Positions 1-20,061 of a DNA stretch of 32,552 bases are shown here, piece after piece. The translations under genes and the position numbers were made by a program. Every line of letters starts with the position of its first letter. Position 1 is the first letter of the stretch. Under the pieces are notes generated by a model. The model did not search any database. It saw nothing but the letters and a program-made list of their open reading frames with translations, and was not told the DNA's origin. This DNA is from Deltaproteobacteria bacterium (GTDB taxonomy: Bacteria; Desulfobacterota; DSM-4660; Desulfatiglandales; HGW-15), in the NCBI GenBank assembly GCA_016931115.1, contig JAFGFM010000220.1, forward strand, positions 1-32,552, in the 5' to 3' direction.

Positions 1-3000
1 ATACTCTGTCTGAATCGTTCACGATCAAGGTTGATTGATACTCCCGCATTAAAATTTGTCTTAACAGTTATGCCTTTTGGAGGCTTTGTTTCATCCAGAA
101 CATCCCTGATCCAGTCATCAAGGGTGGTAGGATCGAGTGCAAGCGCCTTTATCCTGGAATAATTAAGTAGTTCATCTATTATCAGATCACATCTTTTGAT
201 ATTCCTTTCAGCCCGGTCAAGGGCGACAGTGACCTTTTCATCCTCTCCTTTCAGACGTTTTCCAATGGCAAAAACAGAAGTCCTTATTGTACCCAGAGGG
301 TTTCTTAATTCATGGCTTACAGTTGCAGTAAGTTTGCCCAGGGTAGCCATCTTTTCACTAACAAGCAGTTCTTTCTGTGCCTTTTCAAGACTGGCTGTAC
401 GTTCCTCAACCATTTTTTCAAGACTCTCTCTGTAGTTATCCAACTCCGCATCGATTCTTTCACGCATAAGAAAATTTGCGAATATTTCAGCTACGAGTTT
501 AAGTCTTCTTATTAATTCATCTGTCCACCTTTTTTCATGGGTAAGTGAAGCAAAAACCATACTCCCTACAAGAGTATTCCCGGCAATAAGAGGCAGCATA
601 AGTATTGATCTTGTACCTTCATATCTTACTTTCTGCGCCCATAACCTCAAATCATCCGGCAGGGTTTCATTTATGCTGTCAAACTTGATATATTCCCCAT
701 TCATAAGATATTTTTCAAGTCCATATCTTCTTGTTGCATTACTAATTACCTCTGGAAAGGCCATTGGCGGTGGGGCAAGATCAGGGTTTATATAGGTACA
801 TAAAAATTTAAATAAACTAAAATCCTTCTCATATTGACCTATCGCACATCTGTCAACATCCATTAATTGGGAAAATCGTTTAAGCCATAATTCAAGTTCA
901 TTTTTAACATCTTCAATCTTTACATTAATCAATGTTGCTGAGAACTCTGACACAAGTTCCTCAAATTTTAAACGTTCCTCCAGCTCTTTTTTTGCCTGAT
1001 TCAAATCAGAAATATCCCTGGTAAAACAGAAAAACAGCCCTTCATCAGGTAAAAAATTGGTACTTATTTCTACATCAAATACTGTTCCATCTTTTCTAAT
1101 ATGTTTTCTTTCGTTATGAGATGAGCCTCTTGAAATAGAGTCAGCCCCATCTTTTTCTATCTTCTCTGGGTCTTTTGTTGAATCGATATCAGAGATTTTC
1201 ATACTTGTAAGTTCATCATGAGTGTACCCCGACATCCTGCAATATTCATCATTTACAGCAAGGATTCTCTGATTGGTATCAGAAATCCAGAAACCAACAT
1301 TTGCGGTTTTGATTATAGAGGTATACCTCTGTTCCAGTTGTTGCCTGCGCTGCATTTCAGATATGAGCGCATCACTTGATCTTTTCCTTAAAATGGCATT
1401 GGCTATTATCTCTCCGATCAGTTTGATCCTTCGGACAAATTCATCTGACCAGCTATGTTCTTTTGTGTATGTGGCAAATGTAAGATTTCCAATAATCTGA
1501 TGCTCTGCTGAAAGTGGGACAATCAATATGGATTTTGTCTTATGTCTTCGGATTATTGTGTCATTAAATATAGGAGGTAAATCATCAGGTATCTTTTTTG
1601 CCCTGATTATATCCCCTTTTGCCAGTTTATCCATGATTGATTGAGGGGCTTGATTACTTCTGTCTGTTGGGGGGACATCAATAATGGGTACAGTATAAGT
1701 AGAAACGGCATTTATGCGCTTATTATTATAATCATATTCGTTAACTATCCCTCTTTCCACTTCAAGAAACTCAACGAACTTTTTTACCCAGGGGTTAAAG
1801 TCGTTATCTATATTATCCAGTTTTAAATTTATAAGGGCGGCAGAAAATTCAGAGGTCAATTTCTCAAATCCAAGTTGTGCTTCAAGGTCTTCCCTGGCGA
1901 TTTTCAGCTCGGTAATATCCCTTATAAAACAGCAGATAATACCCTCTTTTTCAAGCAGATTGGCGCTTACAAGGACATTAATTACCCTGCCATCTTTCCT
2001 AACATGACTGGTCTCATGATGAAATGATCCTATTTCAGCAATACTCCCTTTGTCATTATCTACTTTCTCAGGGTCACCTGATATGTCCAGATTGAAAATC
2101 TTCATGCTTAGTAATTCATTACGATTGTAACCTGTCATTTCACAATAGGCATCATTAACATCAAGGATATTTGCCTCCATGTCGGAAATCATAAAACCCA
2201 CATTTGCGGTTTTTATAATAGATGAGTAACGCTCCTCTATCATTTGACGGCGTTTCATTTCATCCAGAAGTGCCTCATGTGACCGCATACGCAGGATGGC
2301 GTTGCCAACAATCTCAGCTATAAGCTTAATTCTTCTTATATATTCATCAGACCAATTATGTTCCTTTCTATAATAAGATATTGCTAGGTTACCGAATATC
2401 CTGTTGCCTGTTAAGAGAGGGACAATAATGAATGATTTGGCATTGCTCTTTTCAATGAAACTTCCAATAAACATCGGTGGCATATCTTCGGTAACTCTTT
2501 CTACTCTTATTACTCCTTTTTCCAATTCAGATATTTCCCCAGGTGGAGTAGCACGCTCATCCGGAACAGGAATATTTATTTCAGGGGTTGAATATTGCAT
2601 CAGGTTTTTTATAATTCTGTAATTATCACTATATTCATTTACAGCGCATCTATCTGCATCAATGAGTTTAACAAATTTTTCAAACCATTTATTAAGCTCA
2701 CTCAGGATATGCTCCGGTTGAATATTGATAAGTGCATTGGAAAATTCAGAGATAACCTCTTCAAACTCAAGCCGCTCCCTGAGATCCTCCTTTGCCATAT
2801 TTAATGCTTCCTGGGCGCGCATGCGTAATATTGCACTTGCAATAATTTCCCCAATGAGTTTAATCCGGTTAAAGATATCATCTGGCCATTTTCGTTCTTT
2901 TATATAACCTGCAAATGTAAGATTTCCTATAATCTGACTTTCTGAGACAAGAGGTACAACGACAAGTGATTTTGTATTATGTCTTTCTATAATCCATCCG

Positions 3001-6000
3001 CGAAATGGATCAGGCAGGTCTTCAGGTATCTTTTCAGCCCGGATCATTGTGCCTTTTTTTAATTCAGCCATAACTGTATCAGGAATTTTAAGGAGAGTAT
3101 CATGTGGAGAGGTCTCATTAATAGTCTCAGGAGCCGTATAATTTACCAGGGCTATCATGGTGCTATTATTATAATCATATTCATTAATAATACCCCTGCC
3201 TATATCAAGAAACTCGACGAACTTTGCAAGCCATCTTTTGAGTTCTTCATTTATCTCTTCCAGTTCAATATTCATTAGTGAAGCGGAGAATTCTGATACG
3301 AGCTCTTCAAAGGCAAGCCTTTCTTCTCTATCAATTTTGGCCTGTTTTTCTTCGGTTATATCCTTCATAAAACTGTAAAGGATCTCTTCTTTTTTATTCA
3401 AGGTGCTGCTTACAGAAAGATCTATAATATTGCCATCTTTTTTTCTATGCCTCACTTCATGGTGAACAGACCCGGTGGTTACTAATTCATTCAGAATCTT
3501 CTCAGGATCGGTGTTAAAGGAGATATCAATCTCCGGCACCTTCATGGCAAGAATTTCTTCGCGGCTGTAACCAGACATACGGCAGTATTCATCATTTACA
3601 TCAATTATATTCTGCTCAATATCTGATGACCAGAAACCGACATTTGCATTCTTCACAATTGAAGAATATCTCTCCTCAAGCATTTCGCGGTGAGCTGTTT
3701 CATTTAAAAGCGTTTCATGAGAACGCTTACGCAGGATTGCATTACCTATCATCTCTCCAATTAGTTTAAGACGCTTAACCAGATCATCAGGCCATCTGCG
3801 TTCATTTCTGTAATTAATAATAGTAAAGTTCCCTATAATCTCATTGCCAGCAATAATGGGGACTATAACTATTGCTTTCACATTTTCCTTTTCAATTAGA
3901 CCGCCACGCAGGCCTTGAGGAAGATCATAAGGTATCTTTTCTGCCTTTACACTTAACCCTTTTTTAAATATCTCATTAATGTTCGATGGTGTTTTGTGGA
4001 AATAGGTGAGAGGGACATCAATACCTGGCGCTGAATAATTAAGCAACAGATGAATCATATCCTTTTCGTATAAATGCTCATTTATCATTGCCCTGTCAGC
4101 CTTTAAAAACTCTACAAAGATCTTTAGCCATTTATTGAGCGCCTCATAGATATCCTCAGGGTGCATATTTATGAGTTCAGCTGAAAAATCAGAAATGAGC
4201 TCTTCAAACCTCAGTCTTTCCTCTTTATCCCTCTTAGACTGATTCAGTTCAGTGATATCCCGCATAAAGCTGAAAATAAGATCTTCTCGTTCAAGTTTGT
4301 TGATACTTACGTCCACATCCATAAAACTTCCATCTTTTTTTCTATGGATCACCTCACTGTGGATTGGTGTAAACTTATCAAAATCATCCAGGAGCCTTAG
4401 CACCTTTTCACTGTTAAATGAAATATCAATATCAGATATCTTCATTTTCAGGAGTTCGTCTCGGCTGTAACCAGACATGCGGCAGTATTCATCATTTACA
4501 GTAAGGATATTCTGCCATTTATCCGAGATCCAGAAACCGACATTTGCATTTTTAATTATTGTTGTATATCTTTCCTCCAGCATCTTGCGCAGTTCGGTTT
4601 CGGCAATCAGCGTTTGATGAGAGTACATGCGCAAAATGGCATTGGCTACAATCTCGCCGATAAGCTTTATTCTTCTTACAAGCTCATCCGGCCACCTGCG
4701 CTCTTTAGTATAACTGGAAAAGGATATGTTACCGAATACCTTTTCCCCTGATAAAAGTGGAACAACAATAAGGGATCTGGTTTTATGCTGCTCTACAAAA
4801 GTATTGGAAAATACAGGGGGCAGGTCTTCTGGTATCCTCTCTGCCTTTATTATCCCTTTTTCAAGTTCGTTAATAATACCTAAAGGCGCCTTACGCAGAT
4901 CTTCAGTAGGGATATCGATACCAGGAACAGTATATTCAATCAGGACATGGACATTTTGCTGATTATTAACATATTCATTGATTAAGCTCCTTTCTACATC
5001 AAGGAAGATTACAATCTTTTCGAGCCAGCGTTTAAGTTCATCCTTGATATCATCCGGTTTAACATTAATTATCGCAGCTGAAAATTCAGAAACAAGCTCT
5101 TCAAACCTGAGCCTTTCCTCTTTTTCTATTTGCGCCTTTTTGATTTCAGTAACATCGCTGATAAAATTACAGACAATACCCTCTTCAGCAAAGACATTGG
5201 CGCTTACAGACACATCAATAAAAGCGCCATCTTTTCTTTTATGTCTGGTTTCAAGATGAATAATGCCATTCTGATCCACCATTGAAGTCCTTTCTTTAAT
5301 AACTTTCTGAGGATCACCAGAGGCGTCAATCTCCCAGATCTTTTTTGAAAGGAGTTCATCACGGCTGTATCCTGTCATGCGGCAGTATTCATCATTTACA
5401 TCTAAAATTGTTAAACTCGCAAAATCAGTTATCCAGAATCCTACGCTGGCATTTTTTAGTATGGAGGAATATTTTTCTTCAAGTATCTTCCTGCGATTAA
5501 CCTCTTCAATGAGGGCATCACTTGAATGTTGTCTGATGATAGAATTGGCTATTATTTCTCCAATAAGTTTAACACGTCTGACCATATCATCAGACCATTT
5601 GTGTTCTTCTCTGTAGGTTGCAAAGGTAAGGGAACCAACTGCTTTACTGCCTGTTGAAAGAGGCACAATAATAACAGATCTTGTGTTATCCTTTTCTATT
5701 AATCCCCCTCGCAGCAATTCAGGGATATCATCAGGTATTTTTTCCGCCTTAAGAAACATCCCCTTTTGAAACTCCACGATTTCATTTTCCGGTATATCAT
5801 AAAGCTCATTAAGAGGAGGCAAATCGATTTCAGGTACAGAATATTGCATCAGTACCTTTACTTTCTTTAATTCAATGCTGTGCTCAACAATAACCCCCCT
5901 GTCAACCTCCAGGTATTCAACAAACCTCTTTAACCAGTAATCAAGCTTCTGTGAATAATCATCAGGAGATATCAGTTCTGTTGAAAAATCTGAAATAAGC

Positions 6001-7928
6001 TTTTCAAAATTAAGTCGTTCTTCTAATTCTTTTTGTGTCAGGTTTATATCGGTTATATCGCGAACGAAACTGTAAACAATGTTGGGATCCTTTGAAAAAA
6101 GGTTACTGCTTATCTCAACATCAAAAATGGTCCCATCCTTTCTTTTATGTGACGTCTTTATATGAACTGCGCCCTCTTTAGAAGCAGATTTACCATCCTC
6201 AATTATCTTGTCCTGATCCATTGTGGCATCTATTTCCCAGGTCTTTTTGCCGATAAGCTCCTCACGGCTGTATCCTGACATGCGGCAGTATTCATCATTT
6301 ACATCTACTATTGAATGGCCTGAAAGGTTGATAATCATAAAACCCAGATTGGCATTCTTTATTACAGAAGAATAGGTCTCTTCAAGATTCTCCCGATGTT
6401 CAACCTCCCTGATAAGACTTTTTTGTGAGCGTATGCGAAGGATAGCGCTTGCAATTATTTCACCTATAAGCTTAATTCTTTTTATCAAATTATCAGGCCA
6501 GTCAAGCTCTTTCTTATGGCTCGCCAGTGTAATATTCCCTATGGCCCTGCTTTCAGACATAAGAGGGATAATTACAAATGACTTGATTTTTTCACTTTGT
6601 GTCCATTGTAAAATCTCTTCGGGCAGATCTTCGCTTAATCTCTTTGCCTTGATAATAGTTCCCCTGTCATATTCCTTCATCATAGTGTCAGAGACACTGT
6701 AACTTTCTTCAAGAGGTTTCAGATTGAATTCCTCGGAGGTGTAACTCATTATAATTCTTACAGTGCTTTGATCCCTCTCATATTCACCAATTACACCTCG
6801 ATCAACCTTAAAAAATTCAACCAGTTTTTTAATTAACAGATTCAGCTCATCGCTTATGTCTTCAGCTCTACTGTTTACGAGGGTATTTGAAAATTCCGAA
6901 ACCAGTTCTTCAAATTTAAGACGTTCCTCAAGTTCTTTTCGGGCAAGATTAAGATCAGTTATATCCCTCATAAAACTGCATACAATGCCCTCTTCTATAT
7001 AAAGATTGCTGCTCACATCTACATCAAAGAAAGTGCCGTCTTTTCTTCTGTGTCTGGAGAGATGGTGATTCACACCCGATCTATTAAGATTACGCCCTTC
7101 TCTTTTAACCTTATCCTGATCAAGAGTAGCATCAAGCTCCCAGATCTTCTTTGAAATGAGTTCTTCGCGGCTGTAACCCGACATGCGGCAGTATTCATCA
7201 TTAACGTATACTATTGCTCCCTCTTTGTAATTTGTAATCCAGAAACCAACACTGGCATTTTTTAGAATATTTGAATATCTCTGTTCCAGTATCTCCCTGC
7301 GTTCAACTTCATCATTTAGTTTTTTTTGTGAACGCATGCGCAGGATGGCATTCGCAATTATTTCACCAATAAGTCTTATTCGTCTTATAAGATTATCAGG
7401 CCAGAATCGTTCATGCGTATGACTTGCAAGTGTAATATTACCTAAAACCTGATCTCCGATTTTAAGAGGAACAATGAGAAATGATTTTATATTGTCTCTT
7501 TGAGCCCACTCAAGGATCATGGAAGGTAAACCATCATGTATCCGGTCGGCCCGTATGATTTCTCCTTTTACATACTCTTCCATCCATGTTTCAGGGATTT
7601 CATATAATTCTTCAAGTGGAGAGATGGTCTCCTCTTCTACAGTATAATGGAGCAGGACCCGTATCATATTTTGATCCGGCAAATACTCTGTAATAACACC
7701 ACGATCAAGTTTTAACAGTGTTACAAGTCTTTTCAGCCACTGGTTTAGTTCTTTATTTATTTTATCAGGCTTTATGTCAATCAGTGTTGCAGAGAATTCT
7801 GTTACAAGCTCTTCAAACTCAAGAATTTTTTTGGGAATGCTTTTTTTTGTGGGTGAAGTCGATTTTCCGGGATTTTTTTCCTGAACTATCCCTGACCTCT
7901 TATTGCCCTTCTCTTTTTTAATGGCCAT
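1..7928 (-). CDS. Giant multi-GAF/PAS sensor histidine kinase (3' end cut by window)
   Basis: A single frame stays open from an ATG at 7928 (AGGA seven bases upstream) to base 1, at least 2,642 codons. The N-terminus is Lys-rich and has no signal peptide or membrane segment, so the protein is probably cytosolic. Domain order by rough residue: GAF 33-203, PAS 210-323, GAF 337-500, PAS 510-623, GAF 637-800, PAS 810-927, GAF 940-1100, PAS 1110-1227, GAF 1238-1400, PAS 1410-1525, GAF 1537-1700, GAF 1717-1880 (no PAS between these two), PAS 1889-2005, GAF 2020-2183, PAS 2190-2307, GAF 2317-2480, a coiled linker, then HisKA with H-box ATVSHELRNPLG (His about 2539). The ATPase domain should lie beyond base 1. 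PAS units repeat VNDEYCRMSGY almost unchanged. Autokinase function is inferred from the H-box; ligands are unknown. Most PAS/GAF kinases have far fewer input domains. Confidence 0.93.
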   Translation of the reverse strand, partial: MAIKKEKGNKRSGIVQEKNPGKSTSPTKKSIPKKILEFEELVTEFSATLIDIKPDKINKELNQWLKRLVTLLKLDRGVITEYLPDQNMIRVLLHYTVEEETISPLEELYEIPETWMEEYVKGEIIRADRIHDGLPSMILEWAQRDNIKSFLIVPLKIGDQVLGNITLASHTHERFWPDNLIRRIRLIGEIIANAILRMRSQKKLNDEVERREILEQRYSNILKNASVGFWITNYKEGAIVYVNDEYCRMSGYSREELISKKIWELDATLDQDKVKREGRNLNRSGVNHHLSRHRRKDGTFFDVDVSSNLYIEEGIVCSFMRDITDLNLARKELEERLKFEELVSEFSNTLVNSRAEDISDELNLLIKKLVEFFKVDRGVIGEYERDQSTVRIIMSYTSEEFNLKPLEESYSVSDTMMKEYDRGTIIKAKRLSEDLPEEILQWTQSEKIKSFVIIPLMSESRAIGNITLASHKKELDWPDNLIKRIKLIGEIIASAILRIRSQKSLIREVEHRENLEETYSSVIKNANLGFMIINLSGHSIVDVNDEYCRMSGYSREELIGKKTWEIDATMDQDKIIEDGKSASKEGAVHIKTSHKRKDGTIFDVEISSNLFSKDPNIVYSFVRDITDINLTQKELEERLNFEKLISDFSTELISPDDYSQKLDYWLKRFVEYLEVDRGVIVEHSIELKKVKVLMQYSVPEIDLPPLNELYDIPENEIVEFQKGMFLKAEKIPDDIPELLRGGLIEKDNTRSVIIVPLSTGSKAVGSLTFATYREEHKWSDDMVRRVKLIGEIIANSIIRQHSSDALIEEVNRRKILEEKYSSILKNASVGFWITDFASLTILDVNDEYCRMTGYSRDELLSKKIWEIDASGDPQKVIKERTSMVDQNGIIHLETRHKRKDGAFIDVSVSANVFAEEGIVCNFISDVTEIKKAQIEKEERLRFEELVSEFSAAIINVKPDDIKDELKRWLEKIVIFLDVERSLINEYVNNQQNVHVLIEYTVPGIDIPTEDLRKAPLGIINELEKGIIKAERIPEDLPPVFSNTFVEQHKTRSLIVVPLLSGEKVFGNISFSSYTKERRWPDELVRRIKLIGEIVANAILRMYSHQTLIAETELRKMLEERYTTIIKNANVGFWISDKWQNILTVNDEYCRMSGYSRDELLKMKISDIDISFNSEKVLRLLDDFDKFTPIHSEVIHRKKDGSFMDVDVSINKLEREDLIFSFMRDITELNQSKRDKEERLRFEELISDFSAELINMHPEDIYEALNKWLKIFVEFLKADRAMINEHLYEKDMIHLLLNYSAPGIDVPLTYFHKTPSNINEIFKKGLSVKAEKIPYDLPQGLRGGLIEKENVKAIVIVPIIAGNEIIGNFTIINYRNERRWPDDLVKRLKLIGEMIGNAILRKRSHETLLNETAHREMLEERYSSIVKNANVGFWSSDIEQNIIDVNDEYCRMSGYSREEILAMKVPEIDISFNTDPEKILNELVTTGSVHHEVRHRKKDGNIIDLSVSSTLNKKEEILYSFMKDITEEKQAKIDREERLAFEELVSEFSASLMNIELEEINEELKRWLAKFVEFLDIGRGIINEYDYNNSTMIALVNYTAPETINETSPHDTLLKIPDTVMAELKKGTMIRAEKIPEDLPDPFRGWIIERHNTKSLVVVPLVSESQIIGNLTFAGYIKERKWPDDIFNRIKLIGEIIASAILRMRAQEALNMAKEDLRERLEFEEVISEFSNALINIQPEHILSELNKWFEKFVKLIDADRCAVNEYSDNYRIIKNLMQYSTPEINIPVPDERATPPGEISELEKGVIRVERVTEDMPPMFIGSFIEKSNAKSFIIVPLLTGNRIFGNLAISYYRKEHNWSDEYIRRIKLIAEIVGNAILRMRSHEALLDEMKRRQMIEERYSSIIKTANVGFMISDMEANILDVNDAYCEMTGYNRNELLSMKIFNLDISGDPEKVDNDKGSIAEIGSFHHETSHVRKDGRVINVLVSANLLEKEGIICCFIRDITELKIAREDLEAQLGFEKLTSEFSAALINLKLDNIDNDFNPWVKKFVEFLEVERGIVNEYDYNNKRINAVSTYTVPIIDVPPTDRSNQAPQSIMDKLAKGDIIRAKKIPDDLPPIFNDTIIRRHKTKSILIVPLSAEHQIIGNLTFATYTKEHSWSDEFVRRIKLIGEIIANAILRKRSSDALISEMQRRQQLEQRYTSIIKTANVGFWISDTNQRILAVNDEYCRMSGYTHDELTSMKISDIDSTKDPEKIEKDGADSISRGSSHNERKHIRKDGTVFDVEISTNFLPDEGLFFCFTRDISDLNQAKKELEERLKFEELVSEFSATLINVKIEDVKNELELWLKRFSQLMDVDRCAIGQYEKDFSLFKFLCTYINPDLAPPPMAFPEVISNATRRYGLEKYLMNGEYIKFDSINETLPDDLRLWAQKVRYEGTRSILMLPLIAGNTLVGSMVFASLTHEKRWTDELIRRLKLVAEIFANFLMRERIDAELDNYRESLEKMVEERTASLEKAQKELLVSEKMATLGKLTATVSHELRNPLGTIRTSVFAIGKRLKGEDEKVTVALDRAERNIKRCDLIIDELLNYSRIKALALDPTTLDDWIRDVLDETKPPKGITVKTNFNAGVSINLDRERFRQS
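3340..7830 (-). repeat. Five tandem ~900-bp GAF-PAS coding repeats
   Basis: Inside the giant kinase the PAS landmark (GCGGCAGTATTCATCATT and close variants, on the plus strand) recurs near 7187, 6290, 5389, 4490 and 3589, with steps of 898 to 902 bp. Two further diverged copies lie near 2148 and 1245. The 3589-2148 step is about 1,440 bp because one extra GAF lacks its PAS. The near-constant period and conserved DNA wording imply growth by in-frame duplication of whole GAF-PAS units. This stretch is a likely recombination and assembly hazard. Confidence 0.88.
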
Positions 7929-10731: not shown

Positions 10732-11388
10732 CTACTTTAGTTCCCTGATCTTTTTTATATCATCGGTCTTGCCAAGCATTATCAGTATATCACTGTCTTT
10801 AATAAGAAAACCTGCCGGTGGGACAAGGATAAAATTATCAGGAACCAGCTCTTTTATCGCAATAATATTCACATTATATCTTGCCCTCAGATTCAGTTCT
10901 GCAAGAGTTTTACCTATGAATTCCCTGGGTGGCCCCACCTGAACAAGATCATAATCATCAGCCAGCGGTACAAAATCCAGAAAATTTGGCCTTGAAAGGC
11001 TGCGTGAGACCCTGATTGCCATGTCACGTTCAGGGTGTATGATCTCCTTTGCACCAACGCGTCTTAATATCTTGCCATGATCTTCATCAATTGCCTTTGC
11101 AAGAATATTTTTTACACCCATTTCATGCAAATAAAGGCATATGAGGAGACTTGTGCTTATTTTAGTGCCGGTAGATACAATAACCCCGTCCATGCTCTCA
11201 AGGCCCAGGGCACTTAGGGCCTCTTTATCTAAGGCATCCAGCACAATAGCCTCCGTTGAATATGGATCAATAGCATGAACCCTTGCCTTGTCACCGTCTA
11301 TTGCAATAACCTCATTCCCATCTTCATACAGCGCCTTTGCAGCATGAAACCCAAAATTACCAAGGCCTATAACAGCAAATCTTTTCAT
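10732..11388 (-). CDS. ktrA: KtrA/TrkA-type RCK regulator of K+ uptake
   Basis: This 218-aa cytosolic protein has an N-terminal RCK Rossmann domain (GLGNFG near residue 8, acidic DGD after beta-2) and a C-terminal RCK_C domain (about 135-215). That is the single-unit KtrA architecture, not the doubled E. coli TrkA. KtrA rings bind ATP/ADP or NAD(H) and gate the partner channel. GAGAGG lies six bases before the ATG. The gene starts 13 bp after the KtrB-like channel, its expected partner, and ends the eight-gene run. Confidence 0.92.
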   Translation of the reverse strand: MKRFAVIGLGNFGFHAAKALYEDGNEVIAIDGDKARVHAIDPYSTEAIVLDALDKEALSALGLESMDGVIVSTGTKISTSLLICLYLHEMGVKNILAKAIDEDHGKILRRVGAKEIIHPERDMAIRVSRSLSRPNFLDFVPLADDYDLVQVGPPREFIGKTLAELNLRARYNVNIIAIKELVPDNFILVPPAGFLIKDSDILIMLGKTDDIKKIRELK

Positions 11389-11401
11389 AATATACCTCTC
11401 T

Positions 11402-12772
11402 TTAACCGATCATTATGTTTTCTTCGGAATATTCAATCCCGTTTGAATACTCTTTCCCGATAAAAATATAGGAAAAGGTAAGAACCCCTACGCGACCTAC
11501 AACCATCATAAAAATAATCCATGTTTTGCCCCATGTTCCAAGAGCAGATGTAGCACCCATGGACAGCCCTACTGTGCCAAAAGCTGAAACCGTTTCAAAA
11601 AGATATGAAAGAAAGGAGCCCCTGTATCCTGACAACTGTCCAGGCGCAGGAGCCTCTCCAATAAGTAGAAAAAATAAAACAATCCCGATGACACTTATTG
11701 ATATAAATATGAGAAATATACTTCGGTTAACCGCATCAAAGGGAATACTCTTTCTGAACATGTTTACATGAGAGTTTCCTCTTATCCTATGAAAGGTAAA
11801 AGCCCCGAGCAGTGCAAGGGTAGTTGTCTTTACACCTCCCCCGCAGGAGCCCGGGGATGCGCCTACAAACATCAGAAAAATCACCAGTATCAGGGTGCAT
11901 TCCCTTAATGCGGATATATCAACCGAATTAAAACCGGCAGTGCGGCATGTGACAGACTGGAATATTGAAATCATTACCCGGTGTGAAAAGGAGTGTGTAT
12001 CCTTAAGCAATTCATGTTCAAGAAAAAAGAACAGGATGGCGCCAGCAGAAATAAGTAAGACAGTGGTGACAATAACGGTCTTTGTCTGAACAGAAAGTTT
12101 CTTACGCTGATTTTTTTTTCTTCTGAACCATAATTGAAGGTCATAGAGTACAGGGAAACCAATACCGCCTGAAATTATCAGCATGCACATTACCACATTA
12201 AGCATTAAACTGTTGCTGTATTGTGTCATGCTGTTTGGAAACAGTGCAAACCCCGCATTGCAAAAGGCCGATACTGAATGAAAGATTGAAGTATAGAGGG
12301 CATTTATGAAAGGGAGTTCCTGGCTCCAGTGAAGAGTCAGCAGGAGCGCTCCAGACACCTCTGCAATAACTGTAAAAAACAGGGTACTTTTAATAAGGCT
12401 AAATATGTCTTTTCGCGGTGTGTGTGCAAAGATATCCTGCATGGCCATACGCTGCCTGAAGGAAACACTTTTTCCGAGCCATCGAAAGAGCAATACCGAG
12501 ACGGTCATTACCCCGAGGCCGCCAATCTGGATCAATGAAAGGATCACACACTGACCGAAAATGGTGAAAAAACTGCCTGTATCCACAACCACAAGACCTG
12601 TAACACATACAGCGGATGTTGATGTAAAAAAGGCATCAACCCATGATATAGAGCCTGTTTTTACTGAAAAGGGCAGCTTTAAAAGCAGGCCACCAATAGC
12701 AATAGCCAAAAGAAAGCTGAGCAATACAAGAGCTGCAGGGTGCAGCTTAAGGATTTTATTACTGAAATTCAT
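11402..12772 (-). CDS. ktrB: KtrB/TrkH-family K+ channel-like transporter
   Basis: A 456-aa polytopic membrane protein with four M1-P-M2 repeats. The pore loops are readable as STSAVCVTGL, SAFCNAGF, TCRTAGFNS and SAFGTVGLSMG; the glycines of the K+ filter are all present. Its length (about 450) and the following ktrA indicate the KtrB branch, which is Na+-stimulated in several bacteria. The start overlaps the stop of the upstream Cys protein (ATGA), so translation is coupled. It is the second K+ channel gene in the run, distinct from the TrkH at 13350-14828. Confidence 0.92.
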   Translation of the reverse strand: MNFSNKILKLHPAALVLLSFLLAIAIGGLLLKLPFSVKTGSISWVDAFFTSTSAVCVTGLVVVDTGSFFTIFGQCVILSLIQIGGLGVMTVSVLLFRWLGKSVSFRQRMAMQDIFAHTPRKDIFSLIKSTLFFTVIAEVSGALLLTLHWSQELPFINALYTSIFHSVSAFCNAGFALFPNSMTQYSNSLMLNVVMCMLIISGGIGFPVLYDLQLWFRRKKNQRKKLSVQTKTVIVTTVLLISAGAILFFFLEHELLKDTHSFSHRVMISIFQSVTCRTAGFNSVDISALRECTLILVIFLMFVGASPGSCGGGVKTTTLALLGAFTFHRIRGNSHVNMFRKSIPFDAVNRSIFLIFISISVIGIVLFFLLIGEAPAPGQLSGYRGSFLSYLFETVSAFGTVGLSMGATSALGTWGKTWIIFMMVVGRVGVLTFSYIFIGKEYSNGIEYSEENIMIG

Positions 12773-13365
12773 GATCTGTTTTCCAGGCTTAGGTAGTTTT
12801 CGCAGAACATGTGGCTTTCTGTTTCACAGAGCTGCCTGAGTCGTCTTCCTCCAAGCACCATCCTGTTATACCATGCTTTGCATACTGTCAACTCGTTTTG
12901 TGAGTATATATCTAAATAATTAATGAATGGGCACATCTGTAATATTTGTCGTTCTGGTGAATCGTTTATTTTCATATTGTTAATAAGTTCCAATATTAAA
13001 TTCAGATCTAATTCTGCACTTCCAATATACCGGGTATAATCTACTTTTGCGTGTGCCAGGTCCTCTAATAAGCCGCGGTGTTTGGTATGAAGGATTGCCA
13101 GAATAGTAATATTTTTCGTAATACTGTTTTTCTTTAGAATTGTGCATAGTTCAATAAGGTAATTAATTTCCGAAGCGGCTAAGTTAATAAATGAAATAAC
13201 AATTATCTGTGGTTTCTGTTCAATAGCCCAATGTATACAAAGAGAAGGGCTATTTACCCATTTTACTTCCGATGTAATATTGAGTAATATATTTTTATCT
13301 ATATCACATACCAGTAAACTAACAAATTTTCTTACCCTGTTTTCACTTTCTAATACAGGTTCCAT
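12769..13365 (-). CDS. Receiver-like protein with C-terminal four-Cys motif
   Basis: No firm family assignment. Residues about 14-130 alternate strands and helices like a response-regulator receiver (VSLLVCDID near the start, IIVISF at strand 3, ITILAILH at strand 4), but strand 3 has no phospho-acceptor Asp and the Lys motif is not evident, so it appears degenerate. The C-terminus holds C145-PF, C162-KAW, C180-ETE and C188-ENY (C-x16-C-x17-C-x7-C), a plausible metal or Fe-S site. From memory, similar C-terminal Cys patterns occur in other Desulfobacterota regulators; this is unverified. AAGGA seven bases before the ATG supports the start. It overlaps trkH by 16 bases and ktrB by four, so it is embedded in the potassium operon and may modulate uptake. 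Confidence 0.82.
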   Translation of the reverse strand: MEPVLESENRVRKFVSLLVCDIDKNILLNITSEVKWVNSPSLCIHWAIEQKPQIIVISFINLAASEINYLIELCTILKKNSITKNITILAILHTKHRGLLEDLAHAKVDYTRYIGSAELDLNLILELINNMKINDSPERQILQMCPFINYLDIYSQNELTVCKAWYNRMVLGGRRLRQLCETESHMFCENYLSLENRS

Positions 13366-14828
13366 ACACTATCCTTTTTTCCTAACATTTTTCTGCTGTC
13401 ATCCGCAATCTTTATTATACTGGTAAAGACAATGATCAGTTCCATACGTCCAAGGAACATTGCAATAGTCTCAGACCACAATGCAATATCGGCCATTTGA
13501 GGACTGGTTACACCTATGGAAATACCGACAGTCCCAATTGCTGAGGCAAACTCAAATAGTGAGTCGGATAGGCTATAACCGCAGCTACATAAAACCATTA
13601 CGCCAAGCACATAGGTCGCCATGTACAGAGAAATAAAGGTCATTACCTGCCTTACCTTTGCGTCATCCACAAAAACCTGTCTGTTTCCTTCCCAGACAGG
13701 ACGTGCAAAAACAGCAGTAGTTGGCAATAAATAGCTTTTTATTTCCCAGTAGAGCATTTTCAATAAAAAGTATATCCTGAATTGTTTGATGCCACCGGCT
13801 GTGGAACAAGTTCCCCCTCCAATCATCATTAATATAACTAAAAGAAATATACCTAATGCATTCCAGTTATTATATGTAACTGTTGAAAAACCTGTTGTTG
13901 TGATAGCCGATACAGCCTCAAACACAGCAACACGTATTGGCTTTTCTATGCCGGGAAACAGTGCGCTGCTGGTCAATATATACAATAATGCAACTGACAA
14001 TGGGATTAAAACACCCATCAGGCGTACCTCACCATTCCTGGAAACGACACGGAATTCTCCACGCCACAAATACCATGCTGTGACAAAGCTCAGGTTCCCG
14101 AGGATCATCAATATTACAGACACGGCCTCTATGGTGGCAGAATCCCAGTACCCTATGCTGTCATACCTTGTCGAAAACCCGCCTGTAGAAACAGCAGTAA
14201 AAGAATGGTTGAAGGCATCAAAAAGGGACATGCCTGAAATATGATAAGCAATAATTCCGGTTATTGCATATAAGAGATATATTATAAGCACAATGCGGGC
14301 TGACCGCCGGACATTGGGCACAAGTTGATCGCTTCTTCCCTCTGCGCTTGATATGCCGACACCAGTTGGCCCAATGATGGCAGACATCATTATAATAGCC
14401 AACCCTGCGCCACCAGCAAGCTGGATTATGCTTCGCCATATCAGGATCATTTTGCAGGCGCTGCTTACATCAACTACAGAGAGCCCTGTAGTTGTCCAAC
14501 CGCTTACAGATTCAAAGAGAGCCCTTGAATATGGGATACCCAGCACAGAGGTAAATGGCCAGGCAGAAAATAAAATGACAATAATCCAACTGAATATTAC
14601 AACTACCCCACCCTCCTGAACCGTGAGTGTTATACTGTACGGCGGGTGGAACCATTTCCACATGGTAATACCGATAAGAGAGAGATAAATAGATGGTATG
14701 ATAAAATCCCATGCATGATTAGCCTCTTCAGGAAATGAAAAAAGGATCAGAATGGGTGTAACCATTACAAAACTTGACAGAAACAGGATCATACCAATAG
14801 AGGAAATGATCCCTGAATAACGAGTCAT
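13350..14828 (-). CDS. trkH: Trk system K+ uptake protein TrkH
   Basis: A polytopic membrane protein of about 492 aa with four pore repeats: SGWTTTGLSV, TAVSTGGFST, SAITTTGFST and SAIGTVGISI, plus the TrkH landmark GGGTCSTAGGIK. It carries K+ inward with the RCK proteins encoded just upstream. I chose the ATG at 14828 because AAGGA sits seven bases before it; an in-frame TTG at 14849 with GAGGTG upstream would add seven residues and cannot be excluded. It lies 33 bp (or 12 bp) after the RCK gene and overlaps the next gene by 16 bp. Confidence 0.93.
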   Translation of the reverse strand: MTRYSGIISSIGMILFLSSFVMVTPILILFSFPEEANHAWDFIIPSIYLSLIGITMWKWFHPPYSITLTVQEGGVVVIFSWIIVILFSAWPFTSVLGIPYSRALFESVSGWTTTGLSVVDVSSACKMILIWRSIIQLAGGAGLAIIMMSAIIGPTGVGISSAEGRSDQLVPNVRRSARIVLIIYLLYAITGIIAYHISGMSLFDAFNHSFTAVSTGGFSTRYDSIGYWDSATIEAVSVILMILGNLSFVTAWYLWRGEFRVVSRNGEVRLMGVLIPLSVALLYILTSSALFPGIEKPIRVAVFEAVSAITTTGFSTVTYNNWNALGIFLLVILMMIGGGTCSTAGGIKQFRIYFLLKMLYWEIKSYLLPTTAVFARPVWEGNRQVFVDDAKVRQVMTFISLYMATYVLGVMVLCSCGYSLSDSLFEFASAIGTVGISIGVTSPQMADIALWSETIAMFLGRMELIIVFTSIIKIADDSRKMLGKKDSVWNLY

Positions 14829-14861
14829 AAGAAATTCCTTTTCACGCAAGATTACACCTCA

Positions 14862-15524
14862 CTAACTCCTTTCACCGGTTAATATTTTTATAACAGTACC
14901 GTGGTTTTCAGGAAGTGTGATGATAATTATCCTGTCATCAGGTTTCAAATCATTTGACCCATTAGGTACAATAGGCATATCATTTCTTATTATTACAGCC
15001 ACAAGGGAGTTTTCAGGCAACCTGATATCTTTCAGCGCCCTTCCTGCAACAGGAGAATCATCATTAATGATAACTTCAGTTACATTTACACGACCTTCAC
15101 CAACAGGTAACAGGTTTGTGATCTGTTCAAGTGATGCCCTCTGTTCGATAAGGCTTCCGACTATCTGTGTAATTGAAAAACCTGTTATACCCAGCTTTTC
15201 AAATACCTCCGCATTATCAGGATCATTGGCAAGGGCTATGGTTCTTGAAACACCGAACTTAATAGAGGCCAGTTGGCAAATAACCAGATTATCCTGATCA
15301 TCGGGAGTAATGGCAAGCACAGCATCAGCCCCCATTGCACCGGCATCCTTTAATATTTCAGAATCGCTTCCATCTCCGCATATTATGCGGGCCTTTAACT
15401 GCCTGGCCAATTGAATGCATTCTTCTTTGTCCCTATTGATAATGACTACATTATGACCCTGGGAGATAAACTTCCGGCTCAAAAAATAAATGGTCTTTCC
15501 ATTACCTATGATAAGCACCTTCAT
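14862..15524 (-). CDS. trkA: TrkA-type K+ regulator, RCK_N plus RCK_C
   Basis: The 220-aa protein opens with KVLIIGNGKT (Rossmann loop, GxGxT rather than the usual GxGxxG) and NRD as the adenine-ribose contact. An RCK_N domain spans about 1-120 and an RCK_C domain about 135-217. It follows a shorter RCK_N protein with a four-base overlap; together the two resemble a split and reduced E. coli TrkA, which has two RCK_N/RCK_C units in one chain. It probably forms the cytoplasmic ring on TrkH (13350-14828). Confidence 0.9.
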   Translation of the reverse strand: MKVLIIGNGKTIYFLSRKFISQGHNVVIINRDKEECIQLARQLKARIICGDGSDSEILKDAGAMGADAVLAITPDDQDNLVICQLASIKFGVSRTIALANDPDNAEVFEKLGITGFSITQIVGSLIEQRASLEQITNLLPVGEGRVNVTEVIINDDSPVAGRALKDIRLPENSLVAVIIRNDMPIVPNGSNDLKPDDRIIIITLPENHGTVIKILTGERS

Positions 15525-15961
15525 GATTTTTCTCCATCCATATTCAGGTATCCATTTTCGACAGCTTTAAGGAACATCTCTGCCGCCATTGAGGTCGGGC
15601 ATATGGTATCAATATGCAGATGAGCGTAAACCTCTTCTCTCTTTGGATCATAAACCCTTGCCAGCACCTTCGGGACATTGAAAACCTTCTGAGCAACCTG
15701 AGCAACCATTAAATTGACATTGTCTTCATGTGTGGTTGCAAAAAAGATATCAGCCTTATCTGCCTTTGCCTCCCTGAGCATAGCAATTTGCGTTGCATCC
15801 CCATGTATCTTAAACCCGCTGAAGTCTGAGGAGAGGTTATTGAAGGTAGATTCGTTTATATCAATCACCACGATTGAATTTCCGATTCGGCTCAGGTGGT
15901 TTGCCAGATAAGAGCCTAACCTGCCGCAACCCACTATTACGATATATAAATTATTTCTCAT
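15521..15961 (-). CDS. Short TrkA-like protein, RCK_N domain only
   Basis: From the ATG at 15961 (GGAG about ten bases upstream, inside the previous gene) the protein has 146 aa: an RCK_N Rossmann domain with VGCGRLG near residue 10 and VIDIN after beta-2. There is no RCK_C domain; the chain ends after the dimerisation helix. A longer in-frame start at 16006 exists but adds residues unlike the family. It overlaps the upstream regulator by 11 bases and the next trkA by four. It probably pairs with the following TrkA protein; the NAD/ATP-binding loop is intact. Confidence 0.88.
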   Translation of the reverse strand: MRNNLYIVIVGCGRLGSYLANHLSRIGNSIVVIDINESTFNNLSSDFSGFKIHGDATQIAMLREAKADKADIFFATTHEDNVNLMVAQVAQKVFNVPKVLARVYDPKREEVYAHLHIDTICPTSMAAEMFLKAVENGYLNMDGEKS

Positions 15962-16664
15962 TAGGATCATCTCCGGGCTTTTCCAGGGGCTGCCTCGCAG
16001 CACCAAAATCTATCTTCCCCAGTTTGTACCATGATGTGATACGCTCCAGGTTTACCATAGCCGGTTTGAAGGTCGGTTCTATATCCAGTGCCGCCCTGTA
16101 GAATTTAATTGCTTCATCACTCTCTTCGGTGATTTCATGCAGGGCGCCCAGCAGGTTATATGCCTCAGGCATGGCAGGATCGAAAGATATGGCCTTTTTT
16201 ACAGTATCACGGGCAGTCTTGAAATTTCGGTCAGAAATATACCTTTTAGCCAACTCTATTAATGCATAATAATCATTAGCATTTTCCTCGTTAAGCTCCT
16301 CTCTTGCCAGTACCTGTTTAGCCAGGTTCCTGATTTCAACTGGTGTAAAAGGTTTCTGGATGAAATCCACAGCACCCAGTTTCATTGCCTCAACAGCAGA
16401 TTCTATTGTTCCATGAGCAGTAATTATAATCACACGGATTTTCGGCCAGCGTTTATTAATTTGCCTGAGTACATCCATGCCGTCCATGCCAGGCATTTTC
16501 AGATCAAGGAACACAATACCAAACCCGCCTTCATGCAGCTTTATGAGCGCCTCCTCACCATTAACTGCTGTATAAACAGGGATCTCAAGCGCCTCAAGTG
16601 ATTGTGAAACAGTCAGGCGTATATTCTTTTCATCATCAACTACCAGGATAGAATTTTTTTCCAT
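15951..16664 (-). CDS. Response regulator with receiver and TPR domains
   Basis: A 237-aa cytosolic protein. The receiver domain (1-125) has DDE at 10-12, phospho-acceptor Asp54 in FLDLKMPGMDG, Thr82 and Lys104 in IQKPF, so it looks active. Instead of a DNA-binding output it has TPR-like helices (about 130-215; YNLLGALHEITEESDEAIKF is typical), suggesting output through protein contacts. It starts directly after the stop of the upstream kinase (GGAGAG just before), so that kinase is the likely phosphate donor. The downstream K+ genes make control of transport a possible role; the target is unknown. Confidence 0.92.
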   Translation of the reverse strand: MEKNSILVVDDEKNIRLTVSQSLEALEIPVYTAVNGEEALIKLHEGGFGIVFLDLKMPGMDGMDVLRQINKRWPKIRVIIITAHGTIESAVEAMKLGAVDFIQKPFTPVEIRNLAKQVLAREELNEENANDYYALIELAKRYISDRNFKTARDTVKKAISFDPAMPEAYNLLGALHEITEESDEAIKFYRAALDIEPTFKPAMVNLERITSWYKLGKIDFGAARQPLEKPGDDPNEK

Positions 16665-18512
16665 TTATCTCTCCTCTTCCGCTACAGGTAATGTGAATAT
16701 AAAGGTACTTCCATGCCCTGTTCCTGATTCCACCCAGATGCGCCCCCCATGCGCCCTAACAATCTCCTTGCATATGGCAAGCCCAAGCCCTGTACCCTCT
16801 GATTCATGCCCCTTTACCTGTACAAATTTGTTAAATATTTTTTTCTGATATTCTGCCGGAATACCTGGCCCATCATCATTAACTGAAATATGTACTGTTG
16901 ATCCTACCCTGTTGGCTGTTATGTTTATATGCCCGCCATTACTGACGTATCTGAGAGAGTTTGAAACCAGATTTGTCATAACCCATGTTACCTTATTGGC
17001 ATCCGCATGGATATCAGGTACATCTTCATTAAGCCTGGTCATCAGGTTAACTCCCTTAATATTCAACTGGCTTTTAAAGACCTCTTCAACATACTTAAAC
17101 AGTGTGGAAACTGACACCCTTTCAAAATCGAGCTTTATCCTTCCTGTCTCCATTTTTGATAGATCAAGCAATTCACTTACAAGGCTCTTCAGCCGGTTGA
17201 CATCATCATTTGCAGCAAAAAGAAGGGTGGCATCACGGCGATCCAGTTTCTGCACAGTATGCTCCATAAGAAGGGCAATACTCATACCAAGACTGGTAAG
17301 CGGTGTACGAAGTTCATGAGAAGCGGCCATGACAAACTCTGTTTTAAGCTGCTCAACCTCCTTCATGCGCGTGACATCTCTCAGTAATACTACTACCCCT
17401 ATCAGTTTGCGGTCTCTGCCACGAATCGGTGTAGCAGAGAAGAAAAAATAGGAAGGTTTTTTCTCATCAGACATCTGGATTATACGCTGCTCTTCAGGTA
17501 TATCAGGCTGGCTCCCAGTCTCTATGGTTTTTTTTATGAATTCACAGAGGTTGTTCTTAAACAGGATATCTGAACACATAATTGAGGAAATCTCTTTATA
17601 CCCCATTTTTAGCATCATCCTGGCTGCCGGATTTATGCCGGTGAGTTTCAGATCAGTATCAAAAATCATTAACCCGTCTTCAATACTGGAAAGGATGGCA
17701 TCACCCTTGTTTTTTTCAGATATTATCTGATCAATATTGATTTCATGATATTTAAAGAGCTGGGAGGTCATCTGGTTAAACTCATTAGCCAAAATGCCAA
17801 GTTCATCACCTCTAGTAAAAGGTATCTGAACAGAATAATCACCCTTGGATATCTTGCGTGACGCATCTACAAAAGAGCTGAGAGGACGGGTAATCCTTTC
17901 TGCAAGTATCAGACTTAAAACAAGTGCGAGACTGAGGGCTGACACGGCTGTGATAATTGTTGAAAAGATTGCATGTCTTGCCATATTATTAGCCTTGGAA
18001 CTGGCATTATACATTGTCCCTTCATTTAGCTGTCTCAACTTTAGACATGATTCACGTACCTTTGTAAATATAGGGTGTATCTCTTTAATGTAGATTGAAT
18101 AAGGGGTGTTAATTTTATTAATCCCATTGTCTGTTAAAAGGGTTAGTGAAGAAAATTGTCTCCGGTATTCTGCATATTGTCCATCGATGGATCGAACCAG
18201 TTCAGATTCTCCCTCTACTGTAATGTTATCTTTTGCACGTCCAAGCCATTCAATAAACATGGCCTCGTTTACTCTGTATTGATAAAGGCCTTTTTCTCTA
18301 TCTCCAAGAAACATGGCTAATGCCCCGCTATTCTGCTCTTCCAGCGCATTGGTCATATTCACGGAAGCCAGGATACTCCGATAGTTTTCCCTTAATATTT
18401 CATCTGTTGCTTTTCCAAGGGAGACAAGGTTTGCTATTGCCCAGGCTATAACAAGCCCCATGAGGATGAAAACCACACCATAACCAGTAAGTATCTTTTT
18501 TTTAAGCCTCAT
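16665..18512 (-). CDS. Membrane sensor histidine kinase, KinB-like
   Basis: From the ATG at 18512 (AGGGGAT upstream with good spacing; the frame is open to 18569) the protein has 615 aa. TM1 lies at 10-32, a helical periplasmic sensor at 33-181, TM2 at 182-204, HAMP to about 255, PAS about 270-390, HisKA with ASHELRTPLTSL (His399), and HATPase_c with N-box NLVSNSLRY, DDGPGIP and EGTGLGLAI. All catalytic motifs are present. The layout resembles KinB-type kinases that pair with NtrC-family AlgB regulators, and an NtrC-like gene lies just upstream. The immediate partner by position is the receiver-TPR protein. A sigma54-type promoter and two perfect hairpins precede it. Confidence 0.93.
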   Translation of the reverse strand: MRLKKKILTGYGVVFILMGLVIAWAIANLVSLGKATDEILRENYRSILASVNMTNALEEQNSGALAMFLGDREKGLYQYRVNEAMFIEWLGRAKDNITVEGESELVRSIDGQYAEYRRQFSSLTLLTDNGINKINTPYSIYIKEIHPIFTKVRESCLKLRQLNEGTMYNASSKANNMARHAIFSTIITAVSALSLALVLSLILAERITRPLSSFVDASRKISKGDYSVQIPFTRGDELGILANEFNQMTSQLFKYHEINIDQIISEKNKGDAILSSIEDGLMIFDTDLKLTGINPAARMMLKMGYKEISSIMCSDILFKNNLCEFIKKTIETGSQPDIPEEQRIIQMSDEKKPSYFFFSATPIRGRDRKLIGVVVLLRDVTRMKEVEQLKTEFVMAASHELRTPLTSLGMSIALLMEHTVQKLDRRDATLLFAANDDVNRLKSLVSELLDLSKMETGRIKLDFERVSVSTLFKYVEEVFKSQLNIKGVNLMTRLNEDVPDIHADANKVTWVMTNLVSNSLRYVSNGGHINITANRVGSTVHISVNDDGPGIPAEYQKKIFNKFVQVKGHESEGTGLGLAICKEIVRAHGGRIWVESGTGHGSTFIFTLPVAEEER

Positions 18513-18547
18513 GAGATATCCCCTGTTAGAGGTTAATAAATATATCC

Positions 18548-18570
18548 ATTGGGAATAGCAGTTTCCCAAT
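18548..18570 (-). promoter_or_regulatory. Perfect 8-bp hairpin in the kinase operon leader
   Basis: ATTGGGAA and TTCCCAAT flank a seven-base loop, between the predicted sigma54 start site and the ATG at 18512. No T-run follows on the minus strand, so it is not a simple terminator; it may act as an operator or leader structure. Confidence 0.5.
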
Positions 18571-18571
18571 A

Positions 18572-18598
18572 CCTGTAATCAACTGTAGTAATTACAGG
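18572..18598 (-). promoter_or_regulatory. Perfect inverted repeat overlapping the -12 region
   Basis: CCTGTAAT and ATTACAGG are separated by 11 bases; the repeat ends inside the -12 element of the sigma54-type promoter and covers the likely start site near 18586. This position suits a repressor or co-regulator site. Function is inferred. Confidence 0.45.
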
Positions 18599-18612
18599 CA
18601 AACTGCGTGCCA
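18597..18612 (-). promoter_or_regulatory. Sigma54 (RpoN) promoter for the kinase-K+ operon
   Basis: On the minus strand the sequence is TGGCACGCAGTTTGCC, which fits TGGCAC-N5-TTGC exactly, with ten bases between the -24 GG and -12 GC. It lies 85 bp before the kinase ATG and directly downstream of an NtrC-family activator gene with an intact GAFTGA loop. It probably drives kinase, receiver-TPR protein and the six downstream K+-region genes. Confidence 0.72.
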
Positions 18613-18691
18613 TTAACAATAACTGATTGATTTATATATTATTGTTTATTTCAGGATGATATTCAAGGTGTTTGAAAATGAAGAAATATTG

Positions 18692-18724
18692 AATTATGCA
18701 ATAAAAACGATTTGCAAAATGCAA
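18692..18724. promoter_or_regulatory. Candidate upstream activating sites for the NtrC-type regulator
   Basis: Two related motifs lie 80-130 bp upstream of the sigma54 promoter: AATTATGCAATAAA (18692-18705) and the palindrome TTGCAAAATGCAA (18712-18724). The first recurs exactly at 20527-20540 on the other side of the ntrC-like gene. Distance and symmetry fit enhancer sites for an NtrC-type activator, but no binding data are visible. Confidence 0.4.
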
Positions 18725-18729
18725 TACCT

Positions 18730-20061
18730 TCAGTCGATCTGATATTTTTTGCGCTTACGCCATAATGTTGCAGGGTCTATTCCCAAAACCCTTGCAGCCT
18801 CTTCAAGTGAATTTGTACTGAGAATGACTTTTTGCATGTGGTTTTTTTCTATGTCAGCCAGATTCTGTAGATTCATAGCAGCACCGGAGTCCTTTTTGTA
18901 ATCTTTTATTCCTCTTGGGAGATCATCTGCTATAAGCTCACTGCCACGCGCCATTATTACACCGCGCTCTATTACGTTGATAAGCTCCCTGATATTCCCG
19001 GGCCAGGGGTATTCCTGCATGATCTGCATGGCCTCGGATGAAATGGCCTGGATGGCCTTTCCATTCATACGATTTGCCTGTTTAATATAGTGTTCAGCCA
19101 GCAGAGATATATCTTCAGCCCTCTCTCTGAGCCCAGGAAGGAAAATCTCAAGCACATTGACCCTGAAATAGAGATCTTCACGAAAGGCGCCATCCTTTAC
19201 CAGTTCATCGAGATCCCTGTTTGTAGCAGCAATTACACGCACATCCACCTGTTGAGGTACAGGGTCTCCAACACGTTCAAATTCACGATTCTGTAAAAAA
19301 CGCAATAGCTTTCCCTGTATTGAAGCAGGGATTTCAGATACCTCATCTAAAAACACTGTACCGCCCTCTGCAAGTTTGAGTTTTCCTATCTTGTCGCGAA
19401 CAGCACCTGTAAAGGCGCCTTTGATATGTCCGAACAGATCGCTTTCAAGCAGGTTTTCCTGAAAACCGGCGCAGTCCACAGTAACAAAGGGTTTACCCGC
19501 TCGATGGCTCCATTCATGAATAAGATGGGCCAGCAGGCCCTTTCCTGTTCCGCTTTCACCTGAGATAAGGACAATTGCATTGGACTCAGCTGCCTGTCTT
19601 GCATTCTGGAGAATTCTTCTCATTTTGTGGTTTCGAGTAATAATACCACCTTCCGAAAAAATGCCTTTAAGTGAGGCTATTTCGGTTTCAAGTGCATGGA
19701 ATCTTTTAATCCTTTCTATTACAAGATCAAGCTGCCCGGGGACAAATGGCTTTGGAAGATAATCGAATGCCCCCATCTTAACCGCACTAACAGCGGTTTC
19801 TATGCTTGCATAGGCTGTGATCATCAGAACATGGGTTTTAATGCCACTTGCGATGATTTCCTTGAGCACTGAAAGCCCATCCCGATCAGGTAGTTTCATA
19901 TCCAGCAGCACCAGATCAGGCCTGCTTTTTTGAAAATATTCAAGCCCCTGAATACCTGTATTTGCACTAACTACCTCAAGGCCTTTATCTTCAAGATAGA
20001 CCTCAAGTGTTGTAAGAATATTTCTGTCATCATCAATGATCAGCGCCTTTTTCATATCCAT
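18730..20061 (-). CDS. NtrC-family sigma54-dependent response regulator
   Basis: A 443-aa protein: receiver (DDD at 10-12, Asp54 in LLDMKLPDRDG, Lys104), sigma54 AAA+ domain with Walker A GESGTGKG (168-175), sigma54-contact loop GAFTGA (215-220) and Walker B GGTVFLDE (233-240), and a Fis-type helix-turn-helix at the C-terminus (AARVLGIDPATLWRKRKKY). All parts for activating RpoN promoters are intact. Two starts are possible, ATG 20061 or ATG 20055; the second has better spacing from GGAG. The most likely target is the sigma54 promoter 120 bp downstream. Its original kinase partner may be the HisKA fragment overlapping its start, now reduced to a stub. Confidence 0.93.
   Translation of the reverse strand: MDMKKALIIDDDRNILTTLEVYLEDKGLEVVSANTGIQGLEYFQKSRPDLVLLDMKLPDRDGLSVLKEIIASGIKTHVLMITAYASIETAVSAVKMGAFDYLPKPFVPGQLDLVIERIKRFHALETEIASLKGIFSEGGIITRNHKMRRILQNARQAAESNAIVLISGESGTGKGLLAHLIHEWSHRAGKPFVTVDCAGFQENLLESDLFGHIKGAFTGAVRDKIGKLKLAEGGTVFLDEVSEIPASIQGKLLRFLQNREFERVGDPVPQQVDVRVIAATNRDLDELVKDGAFREDLYFRVNVLEIFLPGLRERAEDISLLAEHYIKQANRMNGKAIQAISSEAMQIMQEYPWPGNIRELINVIERGVIMARGSELIADDLPRGIKDYKKDSGAAMNLQNLADIEKNHMQKVILSTNSLEEAARVLGIDPATLWRKRKKYQID

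Follow-up and report, generated by a model that had tools for sequence, protein, structure and literature searches.

A giant soluble sensor histidine kinase with a duplicated GAF-PAS array and unit turnover between two related species

Introduction

How one histidine kinase gene comes to carry sixteen input domains in tandem, and how so long an array could serve a single kinase core, is the question raised by the first gene on a stretch of deltaproteobacterial DNA of 32,552 nucleotides, referred to here as the window. In the draft genome to which it belongs (G000; 240 contigs, 98.5% complete), the window is contig C42. It was compared chiefly with G001, a separate genome of the same genus, with G003, a member of the same family, and with G006, the third genome found to bear the array. 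A sequence-only reading of the window had offered three explanations for the repeated domains: that they integrate many ligands, that they act as a length-tunable lever, or that they are subject to duplication-driven variation.

The most interesting feature of the locus is the turnover of its units, apparently by recombination, with fixed helix spacing. It is a naturally occurring example of entire sensory modules being lost, acquired and exchanged between two species of a genus while the reading frame and helix spacing are kept, and it opens to testing both the reach of a signal along stacked PAS and GAF domains and the origin of new sensor combinations. We consider it probable that the gene encodes a histidine kinase whose GAF-PAS array arose by duplication, turns over by recombination and relays several inputs through helices of fixed length.

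Domain architecture and classification

The gene is a minus-strand open frame over bases 3-7928 with its ATG at 7928, and it continues for 2,642 codons until it runs off the contig edge. The single uninterrupted frame of more than 2,640 codons described earlier was thus borne out, and no stop interrupts it. The gene does not end there: the contig edge cuts the frame shortly after HisKA, where the ATPase domain begins. A Pfam search of the protein matched PAS in seven stretches, GAF in many and HisKA once (PF00512, residues 2530-2595, E 4.6e-13 for the protein), with the H-box SHELRNP in the translation. With a profile built from the units themselves, nine GAF and seven PAS domains were placed over residues 34-2500 in the order GPGPGPGPGPGGPGPG, giving the domain string G P G P G P G P G P G G P G P G. 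The earlier domain count and the HisKA H-box at the window edge were therefore both correct. Domain limits were set by splitting the protein at its own repeat boundaries, which places the GAF starts near residues 34, 335, 637, 938, 1237, 1536, 1718, 2017 and 2318 and the PAS starts near residues 213, 515, 815, 1116, 1416, 1896 and 2197. The parts of the gene in window coordinates, all on the minus strand, are as follows.

3..7928, minus: giant soluble sensor histidine kinase (predicted), 2,642 codons, 3' end missing at the contig edge
7293..7829, minus: GAF1 (unit profile)
6927..7292, minus: PAS1 (unit profile)
6390..6926, minus: GAF2 (unit profile)
6021..6389, minus: PAS2 (unit profile)
5487..6020, minus: GAF3 (unit profile)
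5118..5486, minus: PAS3 (unit profile)
4584..5117, minus: GAF4, forming with PAS4 the unit not present in the G001 orthologue (profile and alignment)
4221..4583, minus: PAS4, not present in the G001 orthologue (profile and alignment)
3684..4220, minus: GAF5 (unit profile)
3324..3683, minus: PAS5 (unit profile)
2778..3323, minus: GAF6, fused straight to GAF7 with no intervening PAS (unit profile)
2241..2777, minus: GAF7, core 2349-2717 apparently replaced relative to the G001 orthologue (alignment)
1881..2240, minus: PAS6 (unit profile)
1341..1880, minus: GAF8 (unit profile)
978..1340, minus: PAS7 (unit profile)
1029-1433 (residues 2166-2300), minus: probable replaced segment at PAS7, silent sites saturated (comparison with G001)
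429..977, minus: GAF9, the most divergent GAF (33-39% identical to the others), adjoining the kinase core
342..491, minus: putative helical linker from GAF9 to DHp, signalling-helix-like (assigned by eye from the sequence)
144..341, minus: HisKA (DHp), H-box SHELRNP (Pfam and translation)
1..227, minus: overlap with contig C55, identical over 169-227 (59 nt) and diverged over 1-168 (20 mismatches)

The array consists of seven GAF-PAS units of about 300 residues, homologous over their whole length, together with GAF6 and GAF9. The modules had been called near-identical, which is wrong: pairwise identity is 33-55% among the GAF units and 41-59% among the six PAS units compared.

A simple Kyte-Doolittle scan of the window kinase found no transmembrane helix, the highest 19-residue hydropathy being 1.86 at residue 1353, inside the strands of GAF5. 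No Response_reg domain was found in the window protein or in the complete G001 protein, so neither is classed as a hybrid kinase. The gene product is predicted to be a soluble, cytoplasmic sensor histidine kinase of the HisKA type. NCBIfam models gave only partial matches far below their curated cut-offs, a PAS-domain model excepted, and no NKFDE-like pattern of cyclic-nucleotide binding was found in the array. A phytochrome of the plant or cyanobacterial type was considered and rejected on the bilin-binding GAF cysteine, seven of the nine GAFs being free of cysteine.

Unit turnover between the two species

Evidence for turnover comes mainly from two genomes, those of the window and G001, the gene in G006 being broken inside the array. 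In G001 the frame is intact at 2,766 codons and has its 16 domains in the same order, followed by HisKA and HATPase_c, and the DNA upstream of the kinase matches that of the window over roughly 4 kb, which makes the two kinases orthologous loci. Each of these comparable genes holds exactly nine GAF and seven PAS domains, though some of the units differ. In a global alignment, the 299-residue window unit GAF4-PAS4 is missing from G001, and G001 has one extra N-terminal unit relative to the window. The N-terminal GAF of G001 groups in the tree with that of G006, which suggests that the extra unit was lost in the window lineage. Where the unit is missing, 43 nt at the G001 junction are identical to the beginning of window GAF4, and beyond them the sequence tracks window GAF5, the pattern that would be expected of recombination between homologous FEEL-SEFSA boxes.

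Since units have been deleted, added and swapped while the number of modules is equal, recombination among its own repeats appears to be what alters the gene. That constancy gives no support to the length-tunable lever. Duplication-driven variation is supported across the two species by the unit deletion with its recombinant junction, by the extra N-terminal unit and by the replaced segments described below.

Helix spacing, constraint and proposed mechanism

The spacing between domains is held far more strictly than the domains themselves. In 17 units from three genomes the GAF-to-PAS helix aligns without gaps or insertions, the seven PAS-to-GAF linkers in the window share one length, and identity among units is 0.61 in the helix against 0.37 in the GAF bodies. 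These figures, taken with the unit comparison, support recombination of whole units with helix spacing held fixed. Helices that transmit signals between domains of this sort have been described (PMC1592074), and related systems also restrict the length of their linkers (PMC9587094). A structure model of GAF-PAS-GAF contains an unbroken helix of 48 residues between GAF and PAS (pLDDT 80), in a monomer model whose pTM of 0.44 leaves the arrangement of the domains uncertain. The structures that match it best are PAS-GAF pairs of phytochromes, with a resemblance confined to the fold (TM-score about 0.3 by query length). Outside the replaced parts the kinase is under purifying selection (dN/dS 0.10-0.18), and orthologous unit bodies are 0.81-0.84 identical. 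Integration of several putative inputs fits bodies that differ strongly among units yet are conserved between orthologues.

The mechanism we propose begins with a GAF-PAS unit of about 300 residues, which would have been multiplied by in-frame duplication ahead of a standard HisKA-HATPase core. Homologous recombination between units would later delete, add or swap whole units or parts of them, and the location of crossovers in conserved boxes where units meet would keep these changes in phase. Each GAF or PAS body may change shape when its own ligand or partner binds, and the fixed-length helices would relay this change along a dimeric rod to the DHp domain. Kinase output would then be a combined reading of several inputs, and the phosphate would most likely be passed to a REC-REC regulator encoded just downstream.

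A possible but less probable account is that only a few units sense, for example GAF9 and the PAS6-GAF8 pair nearest the kinase, the rest being duplicated spacers or dimerisation modules with little sensory role. It draws on the greater conservation of linkers than of bodies among units, on the gain and loss of units between species, and on the C-terminal block of PAS6, GAF8, PAS7 and GAF9, which is the part traceable in G006. Bodies far from the kinase are nevertheless as well conserved between orthologues as given above, with dN/dS about 0.12, although folding alone could require this. The relay of several inputs along the array remains the reading that we prefer. As an extension of it, we tentatively suggest that the array could serve as a sensor cassette, in which unequal crossing-over and conversion between units, restricted to the conserved boundary boxes, would continually reshuffle the inputs of the kinase with the helix register kept, the length of the array being held by selection.

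The missing 3' end and the neighbouring response regulator

The window frame ends ahead of HATPase_c, a domain that the sequence-only reading had proposed to look for past base 1 and that is present both in the G001 orthologue and on contig C55 of the window genome. The first 227 bases of C55 overlap the first 227 of the window at 91% identity; along the coding direction, the overlap opens with 59 identical nt, and 20 mismatches fall in the remaining 168. Past the overlap, C55 encodes HATPase_c, a stop and then a REC-REC (double-receiver) response regulator. It is likely that C55 continues the window kinase and that the fork in the overlap reflects a strain variant or a second copy, and the last 168 bases of the window gene could be a variant branch. 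The REC-REC regulator adjoins the kinase in G001 and G006 and lies on the same contig in G003, while its place beside the window kinase depends on C55 being the continuation of the gene. The genes downstream of the regulator differ between the window species and G001.

An overlap that is 91% identical and not exact would also fit C55 as the end of a second, paralogous giant kinase. We regard this as unlikely, as each genome yielded only one such regulator and only one giant kinase, and as the 2,642 codons of the window together with about 105 from C55 correspond to the length of the intact G001 protein.

Replaced segments in GAF7 and PAS7

Two stretches of the window gene depart sharply from the G001 orthologue. 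In the core of GAF7, amino acid identity is 0.44, against 0.84 and 0.92 in the flanks, and identity at four-fold sites is 0.45, on only 20 sites. At four-fold sites the PAS7 segment has an identity of 0.14-0.26, whereas its flank reaches 0.81 (Fisher p about 5e-8 for segments picked after inspection). Because the segments had been chosen in this way, all silent sites were scanned as well, and no value as low as the observed minimum, at residues 2165-2213, occurred in 5,000 shuffles. The N-terminal part of the PAS7 segment is 77% identical in amino acids while its four-fold sites fall to 0.26, and a loss of silent identity alongside conserved amino acids is a sign of different ancestry and not of selection on the protein. 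In the PAS tree, PAS7 of G001 pairs with a PAS of G006 and not with window PAS7 (support 0.94), which makes it probable that replacement took place in the window copy. No close donor for either segment was found among all units, the best reaching about 71-73% DNA identity over long stretches. The PAS6-GAF8 region has a dS of 0.25 compared with about 0.5-0.6, a difference for which the scan gave no clear significance (339 of 5,000 shuffles).

Both patches lie in sensory bodies, where change could be selected, and the GAF7 four-fold figure is based on few sites, so fast evolution under relaxed or positive selection might be invoked in place of replacement. This is very improbable given the pattern in the N-terminal part of PAS7, which is the opposite of that expected from selection at the protein level, the sharp patch edges in the G001 alignment and the grouping of G001 PAS7 with the G006 PAS.

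Integrity of the assembly

A 16-domain array produced by collapsed or expanded repeats or by a strain chimera might be suspected in a draft whose contig ends inside the gene and forks from C55 after 59 identical bases, all the more as the G006 gene is also broken within the array, but it is highly improbable, since no 31-mer occurs twice in the gene and exact direct repeats reach 29 bp at most, so that the units can be placed even by short reads, and since G001 has the same string intact. Assembly expansion, raised earlier as a way in which the repeat count could prove false, is unlikely on the same grounds.

The G006 homologue is split over contigs C126 and C201 (loci L043 and L044), both breaking inside the array. 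An 81-nt stretch at the start of C126 recurs exactly within the N-terminal GAF on C201, so the number of units in G006 is not readable from its assembly.

Distribution and comparison with known kinases

A profile of the unit, applied with strict cut-offs to 85 genomes of the class and 395 of the phylum, found it in G000, G001 and G006 only, all of one family. When the unit was aligned against about 85,000 species genomes, identity above 50% was seen only in G006 contigs, although this set may leave out genomes very close to that of the window. A whole-protein scan of the genome collection found no relative. In G003, a related core and regulator are combined with ordinary GAF-PAS-PAS inputs, so the GAF-PAS array looks like a lineage-specific expansion. 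We found no description of the array in a literature search drawn mostly from papers outside subscription.

The earlier claim that such kinases are rare holds in part. It applies to the GAF-PAS unit, found in three of the genomes searched, and less to size, which is not new in itself because giant multi-PAS kinases occur elsewhere. A frame of 2,795 codons in a Bacteroidetes MAG (locus L106) is similar in length, with many input domains and a HisKA-HATPase end. Unlike the window kinase, it is dominated by PAS domains and has no regular GAF-PAS alternation, and its PAS units are less alike (mean about 26%, a rough estimate).

Group III (Nik1-type) arrays consist of HAMP modules and belong to fungal hybrid kinases. 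To our knowledge, these HAMP arrays and the GAF-PAS array of the window are not homologous. They are alike in that a tandem array of input or relay modules feeds a kinase core (PMC3848655, PMC3418262). Soluble sensor histidine kinases with multiple PAS and GAF domains are common in archaea, and MsmS and RdmS of Methanosarcina are likewise cytoplasmic, with serial PAS and GAF domains before HisKA-HATPase (PMC5847659, PMC6944256). The window kinase differs from them in that its 16 inputs derive from one amplified GAF-PAS unit, and whereas haem- and thiol-based sensing has been described for MsmS and RdmS, most of its GAFs (7/9) have no cysteine. In phytochrome-linked diguanylate cyclases (PMC9587094), the length of inter-domain linkers is also strongly constrained, but these have other domains and another output, and their lengths mostly differ by multiples of seven where the window kinase keeps one fixed length. 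The number of PAS inputs likewise varies between related species in Bacillus KinA (PMC3734008), which has only two or three PAS domains and no tandem GAF-PAS array.

Other observations

Elsewhere in the window genome, at about 2620-5330 of contig C2 (locus L145, 1121-3827), a bare HisKA-HATPase of 244 residues with no input domain adjoins a REC-PAS-HK-REC hybrid kinase. The bare core is about 36-39% identical to that of the giant kinase, and contig C90 of G001 holds a corresponding pair. Within the window, positions 10735-20061 form one minus-strand run that includes two TrkH and three TrkA-type potassium uptake genes, a REC-TPR protein, a HAMP-PAS histidine kinase and a sigma-54 response regulator. 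A 32-bp sequence from G001 (contig C108, 99-130) recurs at 91-97% identity in contigs C189, C118, C103, C106 and C18 of the window genome, where it is an apparent dispersed short repeat.
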